A stretch of DNA of 64,000 nt from Desulfomicrobium escambiense DSM 10707. GTDB taxonomy: Bacteria > Desulfobacterota > Desulfovibrionia > Desulfovibrionales > Desulfomicrobiaceae. Positions 19,362 through 29,538 of this stretch are shown here, one piece after another (the stretch's first letter is position 1; each line of letters opens with the position of its first letter). The position numbers and the translations under genes were made by a program. A model generated the notes under the pieces. That model saw nothing but the letters and a program-made list of their open reading frames with translations. It searched no databases and was not told where the DNA came from. The stretch is from positions 124,001 through 188,000 of the forward strand of contig NZ_AUAR01000002.1 of NCBI RefSeq assembly GCF_000428825.1, given 5' to 3'.

Positions 19362-20333
19362 ATGGCACGACCACTCAGAATCGAATTCGAAGGCGCATGG
19401 CACCATGTCATGAACCGCGGCCGGCAACGGGAAGTCATTTTCCGCGATCCGGAGGACTACAAGGCATTCACCGGCCTGCTCAAGAGCACCTCGGAGATGT
19501 TCCGCCTGGGCGTCGCGGCCTATTGCCTGATGCCCAACCATTACCATCTGCTTCTCCAGACTCCGGAGGCCAACCTGGCCCGCGCCATGCGGCATCTCGG
19601 CGGGGTGTACACGCAGTGGTTCAACCGGCGGCACGGCCTGGACGGGCAGCTTTTCCGCGGAAGGTACAAGGCCATTTTGGTCGGGGAGGACGAATACCTG
19701 CAGGGTTTGGTCCGCTACATCCACCACAATCCGCTCAAGGCAGGGATGGTCAAAACGCTGGAAGAGTACCCCTGGAGCAGCCACCTCGGCTATCTGCGAC
19801 GAGGAGACGCCTGGAAATGGCTGCACACCGGCCCGCTTCTCGCGCAATTCTCCGACGACCCGGCCAAGGCGCGCGCCGAATACCGCCGCTTCATGGCCCG
19901 GGATGACGACGAAAACATCGAAAGGGTCTTTTCGCTCAAGAAACTTCCCACCATTCTCGGCAATTCGGAATTCGTGCAGACCATCAAGGACCACTTCTTC
20001 GCCGCCAAACTCAGCCCGGAGGTCCCGCAGTCACGGCAGCTCGCGCCTGTTACGGCAGAAGATATCAGGAAAGCTGTCTGCAACGTCTACGGGGTCGAAG
20101 AGGAAACCATGAACTCCTCGTCCCGAGGCATCACCAACGAACCCCGCGACGTGGCCATGTACCTGGCCCGAACCCTCAGAGGCGACAGCCTCAATCGCAT
20201 TGCCGCAAAGTTCAAAATTGAAAAATACAGCACCGTCGCCAGCGCCATCTCGCGAATCAAGATGAGAATTGTGGCAGACAAGGACCTTGCGGGTAGGGTG
20301 GAGAGAAGCAAAAGGGAAATCGGGAAGAGATAA
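19362..20333 (+). CDS. REP-associated tyrosine transposase (RAYT, Y1 family)
   Basis: A 323-residue single-strand DNA transposase. The Y1 domain has the HUH metal motif as HYH at residues 60-62 and the nucleophilic tyrosine at 119 (VRYIHHNPLKAG). Other family motifs are AWHHVMNRG and GQLFRGRYKAILV. The C-terminal 80 residues resemble DnaA domain IV (RDVAMYLARTLRG ... YSTVASAISRIK), a usual add-on in this subfamily. RAYTs cut and join short palindromes and are thought to spread REP/REPIN sequences. The gene is intact. Its 3' 240 bp are duplicated twice about 1.5 kb downstream, with one stretch of 100 bp (20172-20271) identical to 21773-21872. Confidence 0.93.
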   Translation: MARPLRIEFEGAWHHVMNRGRQREVIFRDPEDYKAFTGLLKSTSEMFRLGVAAYCLMPNHYHLLLQTPEANLARAMRHLGGVYTQWFNRRHGLDGQLFRGRYKAILVGEDEYLQGLVRYIHHNPLKAGMVKTLEEYPWSSHLGYLRRGDAWKWLHTGPLLAQFSDDPAKARAEYRRFMARDDDENIERVFSLKKLPTILGNSEFVQTIKDHFFAAKLSPEVPQSRQLAPVTAEDIRKAVCNVYGVEEETMNSSSRGITNEPRDVAMYLARTLRGDSLNRIAAKFKIEKYSTVASAISRIKMRIVADKDLAGRVERSKREIGKR

Positions 20334-22096: not shown

Positions 22097-22471
22097 TGTC
22101 CCTTGACCCCTTTGTCCCTTTGGCGTGGGATCGAAGATTATCTGGCCGTCGCAAGGCGGTGGGGCTGCTCCGGCGGCCTAGATCCTGCTGGGTGACTGGT
22201 GCGGCGAAATACGCCGACATCGCAAAGTTGATATTGCGAGAAAGGTAGAAGACAAAGAATTCCGAGGTATTACCTAGGCGGTTTCACTCGAGGCAAGAAA
22301 ACCTGATTTTCTGGCCCAGTGGAGCACTTTCTCTTGACCTCGGTCCTTTTGATGGGTGCCTCCATTGCCTTTCGCGTCATTTGAAGACGGTTTTGAGGTG
22401 ACTTTGTCAGCAGTCTCAGTGGCCTGTGCCTCTCCAATTGGAGAGGCACAGGCCACTGACATTTACGCAAA
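22097..22471. other. Gene-free stretch between the RAYT remnants and the pilin gene
   Basis: About 375 bp without a supportable gene. It starts with tandem TTGACCCCTTTGTCCC copies, continues with sequence that has stop codons in all frames and no recognisable protein, and ends with the 42-bp palindrome that follows the pilin gene. It may contain degraded insertion-element sequence. Confidence 0.5.
22417..22458. repeat. 42-bp perfect palindrome after the pilin gene
   Basis: Twenty-one bases (CAGTGGCCTGTGCCTCTCCA then A) are followed by their exact complement in reverse, centred at AATT. It lies 14 bp past the pilin stop. It could act as a transcript-end hairpin, though no T-run follows on the pilin strand. 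Confidence 0.75.
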
Positions 22472-22888
22472 TTAGTTATTAAAAGTACAATTTGCTCCAT
22501 TGTCGACAATATTTGCCGTCATATCGACACCATAATAACCTGTTGTCACAGTGACATCAGCGGACGTACTGACACTTGCAATGGCCGTAATCGCCGAAGT
22601 AGCAGTAACCATTGTCCCGTTAGAAGAAGTATAAACATATCCAGGAAATTTATTTCCAGGGACAGTACTATTGCACAGGCCACCGAATACAGTATTGTTA
22701 AGCGAATATTGTGCGGCCACTTCGGACATACAATTCTTCAAATCAGATTCACAAGCTGATTTCGAAGCATTCCTCTTATACTTCACAAACTGCGGAATCG
22801 CGATCGCCGCCAGGATGCCGATGATGGCCACGACGATCAGAAGTTCGACCAGGGTGAAACCTTTTTCATTCTTTCTGAACCGGTTCAT
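22472..22888 (-). CDS. Type IV pilin major-subunit-like protein
   Basis: A 138-residue prepilin. The leader MNRFRKNEKG is cut after Gly10, leaving mature Phe1 and Glu5, followed by the classical hydrophobic helix (FTLVELLIVVAIIGILAAIA). The 100-residue head has four cysteines and many serines, threonines and asparagines. Length and leader are those of a type IVa pilin. GGAGG lies five bases before the ATG at 22888. Base composition is visibly more AT-rich than neighbouring genes. No other pilus genes are in the window, so assembly must rely on machinery elsewhere. A sigma-54-like promoter lies upstream and a long palindrome directly downstream. Confidence 0.93.
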   Translation of the reverse strand: MNRFRKNEKGFTLVELLIVVAIIGILAAIAIPQFVKYKRNASKSACESDLKNCMSEVAAQYSLNNTVFGGLCNSTVPGNKFPGYVYTSSNGTMVTATSAITAIASVSTSADVTVTTGYYGVDMTANIVDNGANCTFNN

Positions 22889-22940
22889 ACAATCCTCCAC
22901 AAAAATTGGGTTGAGGTATCCATGCTTGTGGTGGGCCTCT

Positions 22941-22956
22941 ATCATCTTCCGTGCCA
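22941..22956 (-). promoter_or_regulatory. Candidate sigma-54 promoter of the pilin gene
   Basis: On the gene strand TGGCACGGAAGATGAT has the -24 GG and, after ten bases, GA where the -12 GC is expected. It lies about 55 bp before the pilin ATG. Pilin genes are often sigma-54 dependent; the imperfect -12 element makes this tentative. Confidence 0.35.
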
Positions 22957-23979: not shown

Positions 23980-25077
23980 ATGACCCCAGACCGCATCCTT
24001 GGCCTGCAAGAAAAATTCGCGCACATCCTGGGCCCGCTCAGCAAGGCCTACGCCCGGCTCATGCGCCTGCGCGCCCAGTTCTACCTGTCCGGCAAATGGG
24101 CCTCCTGGCGGCCGCCGGCGGCCTGCATCAGCGTCGGCAACATCTCCTGGGGCGGCACGGGCAAGACGCCCGTGGTCTCGTGGCTCCTGGACTGGGCCCG
24201 CGGCGAGGGCATCGACGCCACGGTCCTGACCCGGGGCTACGGCGGGCGCCCGCCGCACCTGCCCTACGAGGTCCAGCTCCTGAGCCCGCCCCGCGAGGCC
24301 GGGGACGAGCCCCTGCTCCTCAAGCGCACCCACCCGCAGGCCCGCATCCTGGTGGACCCCAAGCGCGTGCGGGCCGGAAAGACCGCGGGCCGCAACCGCA
24401 CGGACCTCTTCATCCTCGATGACGGGTACCAGCACCTGCGCATCCAGCGCGACCTGAACCTCTGCCTGCTCTCGCCGCGCGACCTGGACGAGGAGTGGAA
24501 CCGCGTCATCCCGGCCGGTTCCTGGCGCGAGGACGTCTCGGCGCTGAAGCGGGCCGACGCCTTCCTGGTCAACACCATGTTCGACAGCGACGACGGCTGC
24601 ATCGAAACCGTGGCCCGCATCAAGCTGACCCATCTGGGCAAACCCATCTTCTTCTTTCGCGTCACGGCCCGCGGCGTGGCCAACGCCCTGACCGGCGAGG
24701 CCATGGACACCCTCGACGGCACGCGCTTCGTCCTGGTCACGGCCATCGCCAACCCGGACAAGGTCTGCCAGACATGCAAGGGCGATCTGGGCGAAAAGCC
24801 CGTACGTCACTTGGTCTACCCGGACCATCACCCTTTCAGCGTCTCGGACTGGCAGGCCATCGTCGCCTCGGCCGAGCGCAACGCCTGCACGCACATCGTC
24901 TGTACGCCCAAAGACGCGGTCAAGCTGGCCCCCTTCGCCGACGAGCGGCTGTGGACCCCGCAGCTGACCACGACCTTCTCGGCCGCCGGCTCGCAGTCAT
25001 TCCGCGCCTGGCTCGACGAGCGCGTCCACATTTTACCCCGGAAACCACATGCCCCCGAAGAAACGAGCAACGAATAA
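23980..25077 (+). CDS. lpxK: Tetraacyldisaccharide 4'-kinase
   Basis: A 365-residue inner-membrane-associated kinase that phosphorylates the 4' position of the lipid A disaccharide. The P-loop SVGNISWGGTGKT at residues 51-63 and the following VLTRGYGG are characteristic, as are LDDGYQHLRIQRDL and the DHHPF-containing C-terminal region. It shows that the organism makes lipid A. It overlaps the 5' end of rnr by 29 bp in another frame, so the two are probably cotranscribed. Confidence 0.95.
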   Translation: MTPDRILGLQEKFAHILGPLSKAYARLMRLRAQFYLSGKWASWRPPAACISVGNISWGGTGKTPVVSWLLDWARGEGIDATVLTRGYGGRPPHLPYEVQLLSPPREAGDEPLLLKRTHPQARILVDPKRVRAGKTAGRNRTDLFILDDGYQHLRIQRDLNLCLLSPRDLDEEWNRVIPAGSWREDVSALKRADAFLVNTMFDSDDGCIETVARIKLTHLGKPIFFFRVTARGVANALTGEAMDTLDGTRFVLVTAIANPDKVCQTCKGDLGEKPVRHLVYPDHHPFSVSDWQAIVASAERNACTHIVCTPKDAVKLAPFADERLWTPQLTTTFSAAGSQSFRAWLDERVHILPRKPHAPEETSNE

Positions 25078-27151
25078 ATTTTCCCGCAAAGCCCTCCTGG
25101 ACGCCCTGCGCCAGGCCGGAGCTCCCCTGCGCAGCAAGAACATCTACGGCCTCTTCGACGCCGACGCGTCCCTGAAAAAGGTCATCAAGTCCACCCTGGC
25201 CCAGATGGTCGAGAGCGGCGAAATCGCCCAGATGGGCAAGAGCTACGGCCTGCTGGACAGCCTGCCGCGCATGACAGGCACCCTGGACGTGCGCCGCTCG
25301 GGCGTGGGCTACCTCATCTCCGACGACCGCCGCCAGAAGGACCTCTTCATCCACCCCAGCAACTTCGGCGGGGCCTGGCCCGGCGACCGGGTCACGGCCG
25401 TGGTCGACACGGGCCGCAAGAAGGACGCCCCGGAAGGGCGCATCGTCGAAATCCTGGAGCGCGGGGTCGCGGAACTGATGGTCCGCGTCAGCCGCCGCAT
25501 TTCCGGCGACAGCTTCTTCTGCCATCCCACGGATGCACGCATGCCCTTCTATACCGTGGTCGACACGAGCGACATTCCGACCCCCGAAAAGGGCGACATC
25601 CTGAGCGTGCGACCCGAAGAGGAGCAGGAGAAGGGGCTGTGGCGCTGCACGGCCCTGCGACGCCTCGGCGAGGAGCGCGACCTGGCCACCCAGGAACTGC
25701 TGGTCAAGACCAGCTATTCCATCCCCGAGGAATTCCCGACGCCCGTCCTGCGCCAGGCCGAGGCCCTGCCCGCCGAACCGTCGCCCGCGGACTGGGCCGG
25801 CCGCACGGACCTGCGCGGGGTGGCCCTGGTGACCATCGACGGCGAGACGGCCAAGGACTTCGATGACGCGGTCTACGTGGAGCGCCAGGAGAACGGCTAC
25901 CGCCTCGTCGTGGCCATCGCCGACGTGGCCCACTACGTGCCCGAGAACTCGGCCCTGGACGTGGAAGCCCGGGTGCGCGGCAACTCCTACTATTTCCCCC
26001 TGTCGGTGGAACCCATGTTCCCGGAAGCCCTGTCCAACGGCCTGTGCAGCCTGCGGCCGCACGTGCCGCGCCTGGCCATGGTCGTGGACACGCCCTACTC
26101 CCTGGACGGCGAGCCCGGAAAGCCCAGGCTCTACAACGCCGTGATCGAGAGCCAGGCCCGCCTGACCTACAACCAGGTCCAGGCAGCCCTGGACGGCTCG
26201 CCGGACACGAACACCGAACCCCTCATGCCCATGCTGCGCGACGCCGAGGCGCTGGCGCAGCTCTTCCTCAAACGTCGCACGGAGCGCGGCTGCCTGGACT
26301 TCGACATCCCCGAGGCCCAGGTGAGGCTGGTGGAGGACATCGTCAGCGTCCACGCCGGTACGCGCCTCTTCAGCCACCGCCTCATCGAGGAGTTCATGAT
26401 CGCGGCCAACGAACGCGTGGCCGAATACCTCGGGGCGCGCGAACGCGTCTTCCCCTACCGCATCCACCCGCAGCCCGACGAGCGCAAGCTTGAGACCCTG
26501 CGCAACCTCCTGGCCCACACCAGTCTGGTGGACCGTCTGCCGAAAGACCTGGACCAGAAAGGCCTGCAGAGCCTGACACACGCCGCCGACGGCACGGACA
26601 TGGAGTTCCTGGTCAACCGCCTGGTCCTGCGGACCATGATGCAGGCCCAGTACTCGCCGGACAACGGAGGGCACTACGGCCTGGCTTCCGAGGCCTACTG
26701 CCACTTCACCTCGCCCATCCGCCGCTACGCGGACCTGCTGGTGCACCGGAGCCTCAAACGCCTGTTGGCCGGCGAGGCGGAAAGCATGGACATGGATGAA
26801 GTGCAGGGCATCTGCGAGGGCCTGAACTCACTTGAGCGCAAGGCCATGGAGGCGGAGAGGGAGATTCAGAAACGCGCGTCAATCCTGGCCCTGGAGGACA
26901 GGGTCGGCGAAACCATGCGCGGCGTGATTTCGGGCGTGGCGGATTTCGGCTTCTGGGTGGAACTGCTGGACATGCCCGTGGACGGCCTCGTGCGCCTGGC
27001 CACCCTGGACGACTACTACGTCTACGACCCCGAGCGTCAGGACCTCCTGGGCCAGCGCACGGGCAAGACCTTCTCCATGGGCCAGACCCTGGACGTGGTG
27101 CTTGATGTCGTGAGCCTGGAGCGGGTGGAGATCAATTTCACGCTGGCGTGA
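25049..27151 (+). CDS. rnr: Ribonuclease R
   Basis: A 700-residue 3'-5' exoribonuclease of the RNB family that degrades structured RNA. The N-terminus is a winged-helix-like segment (residues about 1-75), then cold-shock-type RNA-binding domains (RRSGVGYLISDDRRQKDLFI), the RNB catalytic domain with IDGETAKDFDDAVYVE supplying the metal-binding aspartates, and a C-terminal S1 domain (GVISGVADFGFWVEL). It is shorter than the E. coli enzyme because the basic C-terminal tail is absent. The start lies inside lpxK. Followed by a region rich in palindromic repeats. Confidence 0.95.
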   Translation: MPPKKRATNKFSRKALLDALRQAGAPLRSKNIYGLFDADASLKKVIKSTLAQMVESGEIAQMGKSYGLLDSLPRMTGTLDVRRSGVGYLISDDRRQKDLFIHPSNFGGAWPGDRVTAVVDTGRKKDAPEGRIVEILERGVAELMVRVSRRISGDSFFCHPTDARMPFYTVVDTSDIPTPEKGDILSVRPEEEQEKGLWRCTALRRLGEERDLATQELLVKTSYSIPEEFPTPVLRQAEALPAEPSPADWAGRTDLRGVALVTIDGETAKDFDDAVYVERQENGYRLVVAIADVAHYVPENSALDVEARVRGNSYYFPLSVEPMFPEALSNGLCSLRPHVPRLAMVVDTPYSLDGEPGKPRLYNAVIESQARLTYNQVQAALDGSPDTNTEPLMPMLRDAEALAQLFLKRRTERGCLDFDIPEAQVRLVEDIVSVHAGTRLFSHRLIEEFMIAANERVAEYLGARERVFPYRIHPQPDERKLETLRNLLAHTSLVDRLPKDLDQKGLQSLTHAADGTDMEFLVNRLVLRTMMQAQYSPDNGGHYGLASEAYCHFTSPIRRYADLLVHRSLKRLLAGEAESMDMDEVQGICEGLNSLERKAMEAEREIQKRASILALEDRVGETMRGVISGVADFGFWVELLDMPVDGLVRLATLDDYYVYDPERQDLLGQRTGKTFSMGQTLDVVLDVVSLERVEINFTLA

Positions 27152-27247
27152 TCACAAGAAGAGGTGCGGTGATTGGAGAACTTCGTCTCCAGACGGATTT
27201 CTCCGTTCTATCAAGGAAGAACTGAGAACACCCGCACCTCCTCCAAT

Positions 27248-27323
27248 GTCATTCCTGCGAAGACTGGAATCCATGTCTTTACCCGCATTTTTGAAGATGG
27301 ATTCCCGCTTTCGCGGGAATGAC
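27248..27323. repeat. 76-bp paired palindrome unit 1
   Basis: Two 27-bp elements in inverted orientation, GTCATTCC...GGAATCCAT (27248-27274, slightly degenerate) and its reverse complement (27297-27323, arms ATTCCC and GGGAAT intact), separated by 22 bp. Same length and spacing as unit 2. Confidence 0.85.
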
Positions 27324-27488
27324 GTGGTGATTGAATGATAACTTATCGTTTTGCCAAGAAAATCAAGAAACACGGCATCGGACAACTCGTCATTGTGGCA
27401 ATATCAGGATATTTACAGAAAATTTTGCGTTGATCCAAAAAAATAGTGCATCTAAGGCAAACGCAACGAAATTCCGCACCACCACCTT

Positions 27489-27564
27489 GTCATTCCCGCG
27501 AAGGCGGGAATCCATGCCTTTCCCTGCATTTTAGAAGATGGATTCCCGCCTTCGCGGGAATGAC
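27489..27564. repeat. 76-bp paired palindrome unit 2
   Basis: Two perfect 27-bp elements of the ATTCCC-N8-GGGAAT type in inverted orientation (27489-27515 and 27538-27564) separated by 22 bp whose sequence resembles the unit 1 spacer (both contain GCATTTT near the right side and end GAAG). Lies 76 bp before the GIY-YIG start codon. Confidence 0.9.
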
Positions 27565-27640
27565 ACAATGGCACATCGACTATTTGCCTCTTTGCCGTCG
27601 AGACAAGAAAAATTAAAACATCTCCTTCTGAAAAAACGCC

Positions 27641-27943
27641 ATGGACGCCTCAAAATCCTATTTTGTGTACATCCTAGCAAGCAAGCTAAACGGAACATTG
27701 TACACTGGCGTGACATCGAGCCTGAAAGCTCGGATTTGGCAGCACAAAAGCAACGTTGTGGAAGGATTCACCCAGAAGTACCAGGTGCACAAACTCGTTT
27801 ATTTCGAGATGCACAGCTCTCCAAATGATGCAATCTTACGTGAAAAACAGATCAAAAAATGGAACAGGGATTGGAAGATCCGACTGATCGAGGAAAACAA
27901 TCCTGCATGGAAGGATTTGTGGGAAGAGATTTCGTCTATGTAA
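27641..27943 (+). CDS. Small GIY-YIG nuclease-family protein (UPF0213-like)
   Basis: A 100-residue single-domain protein. The N-terminus has the GIY-YIG core as YFVYIL followed by LYTGVT, the catalytic arginine region SLKARIWQHK and the metal-binding glutamate in AILREKQIKKW. Such minimal proteins are widespread; their biochemical role is not settled. The ribosome-binding site is weak and base composition is AT-richer than neighbours, hinting at transfer. The gene is flanked on both sides by ATTCCC-N8-GGGAAT palindromes: a 76-bp unit ends 76 bp upstream and another copy begins 15 bp after the stop. Confidence 0.88.
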   Translation: MDASKSYFVYILASKLNGTLYTGVTSSLKARIWQHKSNVVEGFTQKYQVHKLVYFEMHSSPNDAILREKQIKKWNRDWKIRLIEENNPAWKDLWEEISSM

Positions 27944-27958
27944 AACTGAATGAAAGGC

Positions 27959-27985
27959 ATAGATTCCCGCCTTCGCGGGAATGAC
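27959..27985. repeat. ATTCCC-type palindrome directly after the GIY-YIG gene
   Basis: A 27-bp copy in reverse orientation with intact ATTCCC-N8-GGGAAT core, 15 bp past the stop codon. Confidence 0.88.
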
Positions 27986-28092
27986 ATGGTAGTGACGCCG
28001 AAGGGTTGTGCGAAGACTATCTGTTGAATTTCAGCAAGGCCCACCTTCAGACAACGTAATAACCTTGCTTCGGCCTGCCGCTTCATTTGAAC

Positions 28093-28119
28093 GTCATTCC
28101 CGCGAAGGCGGGAATCCAT
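28093..28119. repeat. ATTCCC-type palindrome before mnmE 3' end
   Basis: A 27-bp copy in forward orientation, so it and the copy at 27959 point away from each other across 107 bp, unlike the inward-facing 76-bp units upstream. Confidence 0.88.
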
Positions 28120-28164
28120 CCCATGCACTTCACACGAGAAGACTGAACATTTCGCGCTTCCCCA

Positions 28165-29538
28165 TCACTTGCCGATGCAGAACCCGTCGAAAACGGCGTT
28201 CAGCACTTCCTGCGACGTGATCGCGCCCGTAATCTCGCCCAGGAGGGCGCAGGCCGTGTCCAGGTGGACCGAGAGGATGTCGTAGGGCAGACCTGCGGAC
28301 AGGTCGTACAGGAGGCTGTCCAGTTCGCCCATGGCGGCGACCAGGGCCGTGTGCTGGCGCAGGTTGGGGACCAGGGCACCGGGTTCAGGGGTGCCGGCGC
28401 CGGCGACCAGGCGGCGCACGGCGGCCAGGAGGCCGGGCAGGCCCTGGCCGAGTTTGGCCGAGAGGGGGCAGATCGTCCGTTCACGCCAGGGCTGTTCCGC
28501 GAACCATGCGGGGTCGCCGGATACGAGATCCATCTTGTTGGCAACGACCAGCAGGTTTTTCACCTCGTCCGCAAGGTCGAGATCCTCGGCGCCTGGACCC
28601 AGGTCCGCGTCGATGATCAGCAGCACCAGGTCGGCCCGGGACATGAGCTCCCGGCTGCGCTCGATGCCGAGCATCTCCACGCTGTCCAGGGAGGCGCGCA
28701 GGCCCGCCGTGTCCACCAGACGCACGGGCAGGCCGTCAAGCTGTACGGATTCCTCCAGATAATCGCGAGTCGTGCCGGGGATGTCCGTAACGATGGCGCG
28801 GCTCACGCCGAGGATGGCGTTCATGAGGCTCGACTTGCCCGCGTTGACCTGCCCGGCCAGGACCACCAGGGCGCCCTCGCGCCAGCATCGGCCGCGGTCG
28901 TAGTTGCCGGCCAGTTCGGCCATGGCCGCCCGCGCCTCGGACACGCCGCGCTCCAGTTCCTCAGGGGCCAAGCATTCCACTTCGTCCTCGGGAAAATCAA
29001 CCGCCACACAGAGCTGCACGCGCAACGCCTCAAGGCTCGCGCGGAGCTCGGCGATGCGCCGCGCCAGGAGCCCTTCGAGCTTGGTCCCGGCCAATCCCAC
29101 GGCCACGCCCGTGGGCGCGCCCACGAGCTCCATGATGGCCTCGGCCTGGGTCAGGTCCATGCGACCGTTCAGGAAAGCCCGCTTGGAGAACTCCCCCGGC
29201 TCGGCCAGCCGCGCTCCGCGCGTCAGGCAGGCCTCAACCACCAGACGCAGGACGGCCGCGCCGCCGTGGCACTGGAACTCGAGCACGTCTTCGCCGGTGA
29301 AGGAGCGCGGGCCCGGCATCCAGGCGGTCAGGACCTCGTCGATGAAGTTTCCCGCCGCGTCACGCAACTGGCCGTGGTGCAGGCGGTACGCCCCGAAACC
29401 GGAAAAATCCGGACGCGAGGACTGGAAGAGCCCGAGCCCGATGTCCCGGGCCGCGGGGCCGCTCAGGCGGACGATGCCGATGGCGCCCTGTCCGGGCGGG
29501 GTGGCGATGGCGACGATGGTATTGGTGTGTGTTGGCAT
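28165..29538 (-). CDS. mnmE: tRNA modification GTPase MnmE
   Basis: A 457-residue GTPase which with MnmG adds carboxymethylaminomethyl groups to U34 of certain tRNAs. The N-terminal folate-binding domain begins TIVAIATPPGQGAIGIVRLSGP; the G domain has the P-loop GQVNAGKSS, DTAGL and NKMD; the protein ends in the catalytic CIGK. Length is normal. No Shine-Dalgarno is visible: a terminator-like hairpin with a seven-T tail ends only five bases before the start codon. It is the last gene of the rpmH-rnpA-yidD-yidC-jag-mnmE order. Confidence 0.95.
   Translation of the reverse strand: MPTHTNTIVAIATPPGQGAIGIVRLSGPAARDIGLGLFQSSRPDFSGFGAYRLHHGQLRDAAGNFIDEVLTAWMPGPRSFTGEDVLEFQCHGGAAVLRLVVEACLTRGARLAEPGEFSKRAFLNGRMDLTQAEAIMELVGAPTGVAVGLAGTKLEGLLARRIAELRASLEALRVQLCVAVDFPEDEVECLAPEELERGVSEARAAMAELAGNYDRGRCWREGALVVLAGQVNAGKSSLMNAILGVSRAIVTDIPGTTRDYLEESVQLDGLPVRLVDTAGLRASLDSVEMLGIERSRELMSRADLVLLIIDADLGPGAEDLDLADEVKNLLVVANKMDLVSGDPAWFAEQPWRERTICPLSAKLGQGLPGLLAAVRRLVAGAGTPEPGALVPNLRQHTALVAAMGELDSLLYDLSAGLPYDILSVHLDTACALLGEITGAITSQEVLNAVFDGFCIGK

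Follow-up and report, generated by a model that had tools for sequence, protein, structure and literature searches.

Between two genes that we take, from their translations, to be rnr (25049-27151) and mnmE (28165-29538, minus strand), the window (G000:C2:124001-188000, the whole stretch of 64,000 nucleotides analysed here) contains a gap with six tagged ATTCC...GGAAT palindromes and a 100-codon GIY-YIG open reading frame. This arrangement raises the question of whether the small GIY-YIG protein, rather than a RAYT-type transposase, is the enzyme of the palindrome family that surrounds its gene.

A GIY-YIG gene among CGTC-tagged palindromes

Using a combination of methods (palindrome and hairpin searches, folding, profile searches, protein alignment and structure modeling), we found that the palindromes predicted around the 100-residue GIY-YIG gene are indeed six, five of them exact and one decayed. 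The exact matches to ATTCCC-N8-GGGAAT, in a search that allowed up to one mismatch, start at positions 27301, 27492, 27542, 27963 and 28096, against 0.20 matches expected from shuffling the window (none of 100 shuffles reached five), while the decayed copy occupies positions 27248-27273. Upstream of the gene lie two 76-bp dimers with their heads outward, both recorded without strand on the basis of palindrome search, folding and dimer comparison: the dimer at 27248..27323, whose first repeat is decayed, and the dimer at 27489..27564, whose two repeats are perfect palindromes. Each dimer consists of two 26-bp inverted repeats; the size and inversion originally predicted for these pairs held, whereas the spacer between the repeats measures 24 bp instead of 22. 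The two dimers are identical at 68 of 76 positions overall and at 20 of 24 positions in their spacers, and when folded as single strands they form long hairpins (−20.4 and −35.5 kcal/mol, respectively) that none of 200 shuffles equaled. The gene itself (27641..27943, plus strand; assigned from the open reading frame, Pfam, alignment and a structure model) encodes a 100-residue GIY-YIG nuclease, the putative cognate enzyme of the repeats. Two repeats found by palindrome and hairpin search follow it: one at 27960..27985 on the minus strand, with its head outward (GAC at 27983-27985), and another further downstream at 28093..28118 on the plus strand, in the opposite orientation.

The window cluster is the densest palindrome cluster of its genome (G000) among the matches listed. 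Away from the gene, 27 inspected regions of G000 yielded two heads-outward and five heads-inward repeat pairs, so that the heads-outward form seen in the window is not the commoner one in this genome; the dimers in these regions included one of 71 bp and one of 78 bp. Another locus of G000 (L283, G000:C36:12686-14029) displays three near-identical 62-bp direct repeats, each made of one CGTC-REP and a spacer. Elsewhere in the window, a perfect 40-bp palindrome (22418-22457), possibly a terminator, lies just past the 3' end of a pilin-like open reading frame (22472-22945, minus strand).

A 2013 survey (PMC3733652) defines class CGTC-1 of the CGTC-REP super-family by its tag, stem, loop and tail, and counts the dRS3 repeats of Neisseria among its members. 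Its authors record CGTC-REPs in five phyla, place REPs mostly downstream of coding regions, describe CGTC-REPs as being without a dedicated transposase and as not found beside tyrosine transposases, and leave open which enzyme makes and keeps them (PMC3733652). The window palindromes display every one of the defining features (a CGTC or TGTC tag, an 8-bp stem starting with AT, a 4-base loop and a CCA tail), they form dimers, and they are dispersed in many copies (46 exact ones in G000). Hence, the predicted sharing of a core with the Neisseria dRS3 elements proved right, the window repeats being of class CGTC-1 and of the dRS3 type; what differs is that no dedicated enzyme accompanies the class in the survey (PMC3733652), whereas in the window the repeats frame a GIY-YIG gene. 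A link between GIY-YIG proteins and CGTC-REPs was not found among the titles and abstracts listed for the openly licensed papers that we searched; a term search of the RepRanger paper (PMC12306157) found none of the words GIY, RAYT, dRS3 and transposase, and CGTC solely in the reference list.

The product of the window gene matches the GIY-YIG profile of Pfam (PF01541, E 3.3e-16). In a 15-member alignment it keeps the invariant residues G23, R31, H35, E68 and K72, and the nearly invariant residues Y10, Y21 and N87; of these, Y21, R31 and E68 are the predicted catalytic residues. Its structure model has a mean pLDDT of 90.1, and its closest solved relative by both sequence (E 1.9e-8) and fold (E 2.8e-4) is UPF0213 (PDB 1zg2, BH0048); no named NCBIfam family was found for it. 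The gene is the only one of its kind in G000, where the whole window unit is also single-copy, and the two other GIY-YIG genes of this genome have no CGTC-REP within 1.5 kb.

A homolog from N. gonorrhoeae (L121), which is 55% identical to the window protein and which may be the published Neisseria Ssn, lies among dRS3 repeats, the nearest of which point heads-inward. Ssn proteins, reportedly presented in Nature Communications in 2025, are said to be widespread nucleases within the GIY-YIG superfamily, defined as stand-alone GIY-YIG domains of about 100 residues that cleave single-stranded DNA only and at specific sites; homology to the Neisseria protein and a cognate repeat, present in many copies and around the gene, belong to this definition too. 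The Neisseria member reportedly acts on the NTS repeats of that genus, its binding and cutting of the NTS repeat having been shown in vitro. To our knowledge, a mobile REP-gene-REP unit and a link to the whole CGTC-REP super-family were not part of that study. Similarly to Ssn, the window protein is a small stand-alone GIY-YIG domain of about 100 residues, it has a Neisseria homolog (L121, the putative Ssn), and it has a putative cognate repeat that occurs in many copies, also around its gene; cleavage has reportedly been shown for Ssn and is predicted for the window protein. We propose that the window protein is probably one of these Ssn nucleases, and that its gene is a probable member of this already described nuclease-repeat pairing. 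What is novel in our proposal is that CGTC-REPs are read as the ends of GIY-YIG elements, or as what remains of them.

Framing of the gene and boundaries of its copies

A collection of species genomes scanned with the protein alignment gave at least 577 confirmed relatives, the best 80 of which, chosen by protein similarity only, were used; the records of these 80 loci belong to Pseudomonadota, Myxococcota, Chloroflexi, Planctomycetes, Nitrospirae, Bacteroidetes, Elusimicrobia, Patescibacteria and others. In the 75 of these best 80 loci that were usable (300 bp of flank on both sides), a fixed REP detector (GTCA and then an 8-bp stem with no more than one mismatch) found a REP within 300 bp of the gene in 70 cases, REPs on both sides in 57 and heads-outward REPs on both sides in 49. 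The corresponding values were 11.1%, 0.32% and 0.15% for 4069 control positions of the same loci, and 117, 7 and 5 for 642 proxy genes of these loci (two of the 236 proxy genes shorter than 700 bp were framed heads-outward). Upstream, the nearest REP lay at a median distance of 14 bp (63 loci), and downstream at one of 11 bp (64 loci). The REP density, 10.5 per kb in the first 100 bp around the gene, dropped to 0.18-0.32 per kb at distances above 500 bp. Some background is inherent in the detector and is shared by the controls (17 hairpins reported in the window, five of which are the CGTC-REPs; 0.084 per kb in shuffled loci). The five loci counted as misses (L051, L117, L120, L127 and L129) have variant hairpins, as judged by eye, and a motif-free inverted-repeat test, weaker than the tagged detector, placed only 38 of the 75 loci above 99% of their controls.

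In an order-level set, a REP was detected within 300 bp in 17 of 30 GIY-YIG loci and in none of the other 13. Five of these 13 (L029, L031, L032, L033 and L042) have differently built heads-outward repeats by eye, and the other eight, in which no repeat was seen by eye, are weaker matches (E 6e-9 or higher). The five loci carry more distant GIY-YIG genes, and their repeats are longer, imperfect and tagged, starting with GTCATTCTGAG or GTCATTGCGAG. In two Bradyrhizobium loci (L080 and L120) the gene occupies the same place and the downstream repeat differs, as if repeats had been swapped around a fixed gene.

The stem cores differ between loci (ATTCCCG, ATTCCGG, ATTCCTG, ATACCGG, ATGCCCC, ATTGCGA and others). 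Upstream and downstream stems agreed in 34 of the 74 loci (out of 95) that have a head on both sides, against a mean of 12.8 and a maximum of 23 in shuffles; on the protein tree, the repeat class changed 27 times, against a mean of 37.7 and a minimum of 34 in 200 label shuffles (77 of 95 rows classed). The repeat core follows the protein tree, a result that favors co-inheritance more than strict co-evolution because the tree rests on few columns, many of its forks are open, and shared host ancestry contributes.

The best 80 of the at least 577 loci include four same-genome pairs, and the homology of all four begins within 3 bp of the upstream tag. In the pair L102/L109 (G327) it also ends exactly at the downstream tag. 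The homology of the pair L095/L107 (G321) ends at a tag too, but this is where the L095 contig ends, so that we rejected this pair as a complete unit; the alignments of the remaining two pairs stop inside the gene. Among 60 loci of multi-copy genomes, 20 same-genome pairs reached an identity of at least 72%; two of them are bounded by both tags and have unrelated flanks, in G327 (L102/L109, 413 bp) and in G318 (373 bp). One-sided boundaries were observed in G325 (right) and G304 (left), homology came within 8 bp of the tag at one end in G326 (two pairs) and G337, and it stopped inside or near the gene in the rest. Hence, dispersed copies with sharp common ends, as expected of a transposable element, occur in G327 and G318 at both ends; homology running from a CGTC head to a GACG head has the shape that a compact mobile unit would have. 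No target duplication was noticed in the printed copies.

The 48 gene-bearing genomes that were searched harbor one to ten gene matches each, with up to ten in a genome of 0.7 Mb, and truncated gene copies adjoin REPs in G013, G023 and G038 (group g14). By eye, several copies at four loci of these genomes (L023, L047, L048 and L050) retain only the 3' end of the gene, and the unit there is apparently nested in a longer repeat with the outer inverted sequence GTACGCAAAAACTGGATGAAC and its complement.

The comparison of empty and filled flanks that the original prediction had called for yielded no insertion junction. When the joined flanks of G000 repeats were searched in G079, G052 and G061, no precise empty site was found, and the match lengths suggest that several repeat sites are also filled in these three genomes. 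The locus L005, aligned in detail, is absent in G052 and G061, where the difference in length is larger and falls between a terminator and the gene that follows it; in such relatives without an insert at the site, the length change exceeds the size of the unit.

Repeat copy number, the GIY-YIG gene and a Y1 transposase

In 395 genomes of the phylum (77 with a strong alignment match, E below 1e-30; 76 with a weak match; 242 with none), repeats were counted as GTCATTCC-N10/11-GGAATCCA. At least five repeats were present in 44 of the 77 strong-match genomes, 20 of the 76 weak-match genomes and 25 of the 242 gene-free genomes, that is in 44/77 versus 45/318 of the others (odds ratio 8.1), and at least 100 repeats in ten, zero and one genomes, respectively. 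In a test confined to 32 families (195 genomes), the observed association was reached by none of 20000 permutations. One genome without a gene match (G452) contains 240 copies, and 22 of the 77 strong-match genomes have no repeat of this type. Many of the weaker matches (E 1e-8 to 1e-25) that were the only ones in 76 of the 395 genomes span profile positions of about 3-81; these matches may form a second clade of small GIY-YIG proteins, accompanied by few ATTCC-type repeats.

The genus (16 genomes) behaves differently from the phylum. The gene is present in G000, G058 and G064, which have 46, 63 and 6 copies of the palindrome, respectively, whereas G019, G024 (one contig) and G055 have 40, 56 and 53 copies and no GIY-YIG match. 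The simple rule of no gene, no repeats therefore fails in the genus. The expectation that copy number is higher with the gene holds across the phylum and within its families but not here, where copy-rich genomes that lack the gene, which had been named as evidence against the pairing, do occur locally. The gap between rnr and mnmE measures 1017 bp in G000, 997 bp in G058, 14 bp in G052 (which has the closest MnmE end, 89%), 6 bp in both G055 and G029, and 156-177 bp, without the gene, in G024, G061, G039 and G019; in this comparison, the mnmE match was absent in two genomes and rnr was not beside mnmE in four others.

All five genus genomes with at least 40 copies (G000, G019, G024, G055 and G058) carry a Y1 transposase gene some kb from rnr-mnmE. 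In the window, this gene lies at 19362-20333 on the plus strand and encodes 323 amino acids; its relatives in G058, G055, G024 and G019 are 73-77% identical to it, and the gene order near rnr/mnmE is the same in G055 and G024, both of which were checked. In the genus, the conserved Y1 gene tracks repeat abundance better than the GIY-YIG gene does. On this pattern of copy-rich genomes without the nuclease gene, all with Y1, the genus repeats may have been spread by another enzyme, or the nuclease gene may have been lost after spreading them.

The surroundings of the Y1 genes are of another kind. None of 31 Y1 loci (some of them cut by contig ends) is framed heads-outward on both sides, a hairpin was detected within 900 bp of the Y1 domain in six of the 31 (one of which, L157, is not REP-like), and no REP lies within about 0.9 kb of the Y1 gene on either side in G000, G055 and G024. 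The window arrangement resembles the RAYT/REPIN systems (REPtrons) in having the gene of a DNA-cutting enzyme framed by REPs, and REP dimers across the genome, and it differs from them in its enzyme (a GIY-YIG nuclease instead of a HUH tyrosine transposase) and its tag (CGTC/TGTC instead of GTAG); the framed Y1 gene that defines a REPtron was not seen in the 31 loci. With none of these loci framed heads-outward, a RAYT was rejected as the resident enzyme, but the genus pattern keeps it among the alternatives.

A probable nuclease-repeat pairing and its possible mobility

The pairing between nuclease and repeat is well supported. Because hairpins of this kind frame the gene in many unrelated bacteria as well, the GIY-YIG protein is probably the missing partner that cuts the CGTC-REPs, and it may also spread them. 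We infer that the protein binds and cuts the repeat, and that cutting leads to copying by way of rejoining. The reading towards which we lean, with reserve, is that the gene and its flanking repeats form one compact REP-gene-REP element, whose nuclease cuts hairpins at the CGTC tag, so that the unit or the dimers are rejoined elsewhere. In such a mechanism, the nuclease would recognize the CGTC-tagged hairpin, either single-stranded or extruded, and cut at the tag, outside the stem. Cuts at both outer tags would free or expose either the whole unit (autonomous), with the ends observed in G327 and G318, or a dimer of two REPs like those of 76 bp (non-autonomous). Host repair or replication would then rejoin the freed unit elsewhere; GIY-YIG enzymes act by hydrolysis, with no covalent intermediate, so that host functions would be required for this step. 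A bolder version, which we regard as less likely than not, is that CGTC-REPs, a very widespread class of bacterial repeats, are the inverted ends of a self-spreading element of about 400 bp and its miniature derivatives. The sole gene of this element would encode the GIY-YIG nuclease, and such a transposon class would mobilize hairpins with a hydrolytic homing-type nuclease in place of a transposase.

A somewhat less probable alternative, which we consider rather unlikely, is a cognate nuclease without transposition, modeled on the Neisseria Ssn/NTS system, where the nuclease reportedly acts on the single-stranded repeat and modulates uptake, recombination or repair. The protein would cut single-stranded REP DNA and modulate DNA uptake, recombination or repair, the repeats would spread and persist by recombination and selection, and those flanking the gene would be regulatory or retention sites. 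The position of the N. gonorrhoeae homolog L121 (55% identical) among dRS3 repeats agrees with this alternative, as do the failures to notice a target duplication and to obtain a precise empty site, but it does not by itself explain the dispersed same-genome copies that end exactly at tags, the several copies per genome (up to ten in 0.7 Mb), or the truncated copies beside REPs. It is improbable that a Y1/RAYT-type transposase moves the CGTC-REPs and that the GIY-YIG gene is carried along or makes secondary use of them. Such a role for Y1 would account for its presence, in the same neighborhood, in all five genus genomes with at least 40 copies, and for its correlation with copy number in the phylum sample (75/248 versus 14/147), which is also seen among genomes without any GIY-YIG match (23/137 versus 2/105). 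However, the GIY-YIG association with copy number holds in Y1-negative genomes (9/23 versus 5/124), similarly to Y1-positive ones (35/54 versus 40/194), none of the 31 Y1 loci is framed heads-outward on both sides, hairpins and REPs are scarce or absent near the Y1 genes as described above, and G029, with a partial Y1 relative (68%) at a contig end, has only eight copies; in the 2013 survey, CGTC repeats are likewise not flanking tyrosine transposases (PMC3733652). As for chance or mere crowding, with REPs gathering in gaps and a small gene happening into one of them, the location of the window unit within the rnr-mnmE gap and the surveyed preference of REPs for sites downstream of coding regions (PMC3733652) would fit it, but heads-outward framing of five in 642 proxy genes (2/236 below 700 bp), against 49 in 75 for the GIY-YIG gene, makes it exceedingly improbable, and the control positions and proxy genes of the same loci led us to discard it.

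The original proposal of the GIY-YIG protein, instead of a RAYT, as the resident enzyme thus gains from the framing (70/75), from the tag-bounded copies in two genomes and from the copy-number association in 395 genomes; the copy-rich genus genomes without the gene speak against it. On the pairing the proposal is largely right, and its mobility part is what we infer. If the small GIY-YIG protein is the enzyme of the CGTC-REPs, at least 577 GIY-YIG relatives would gain a function, together with a predicted target that is apparent from the sequences beside their genes, and single-stranded oligonucleotides would suffice to test the pairing. A unit that also moved by itself would be an autonomous mobile element of very small size, working without a transposase.
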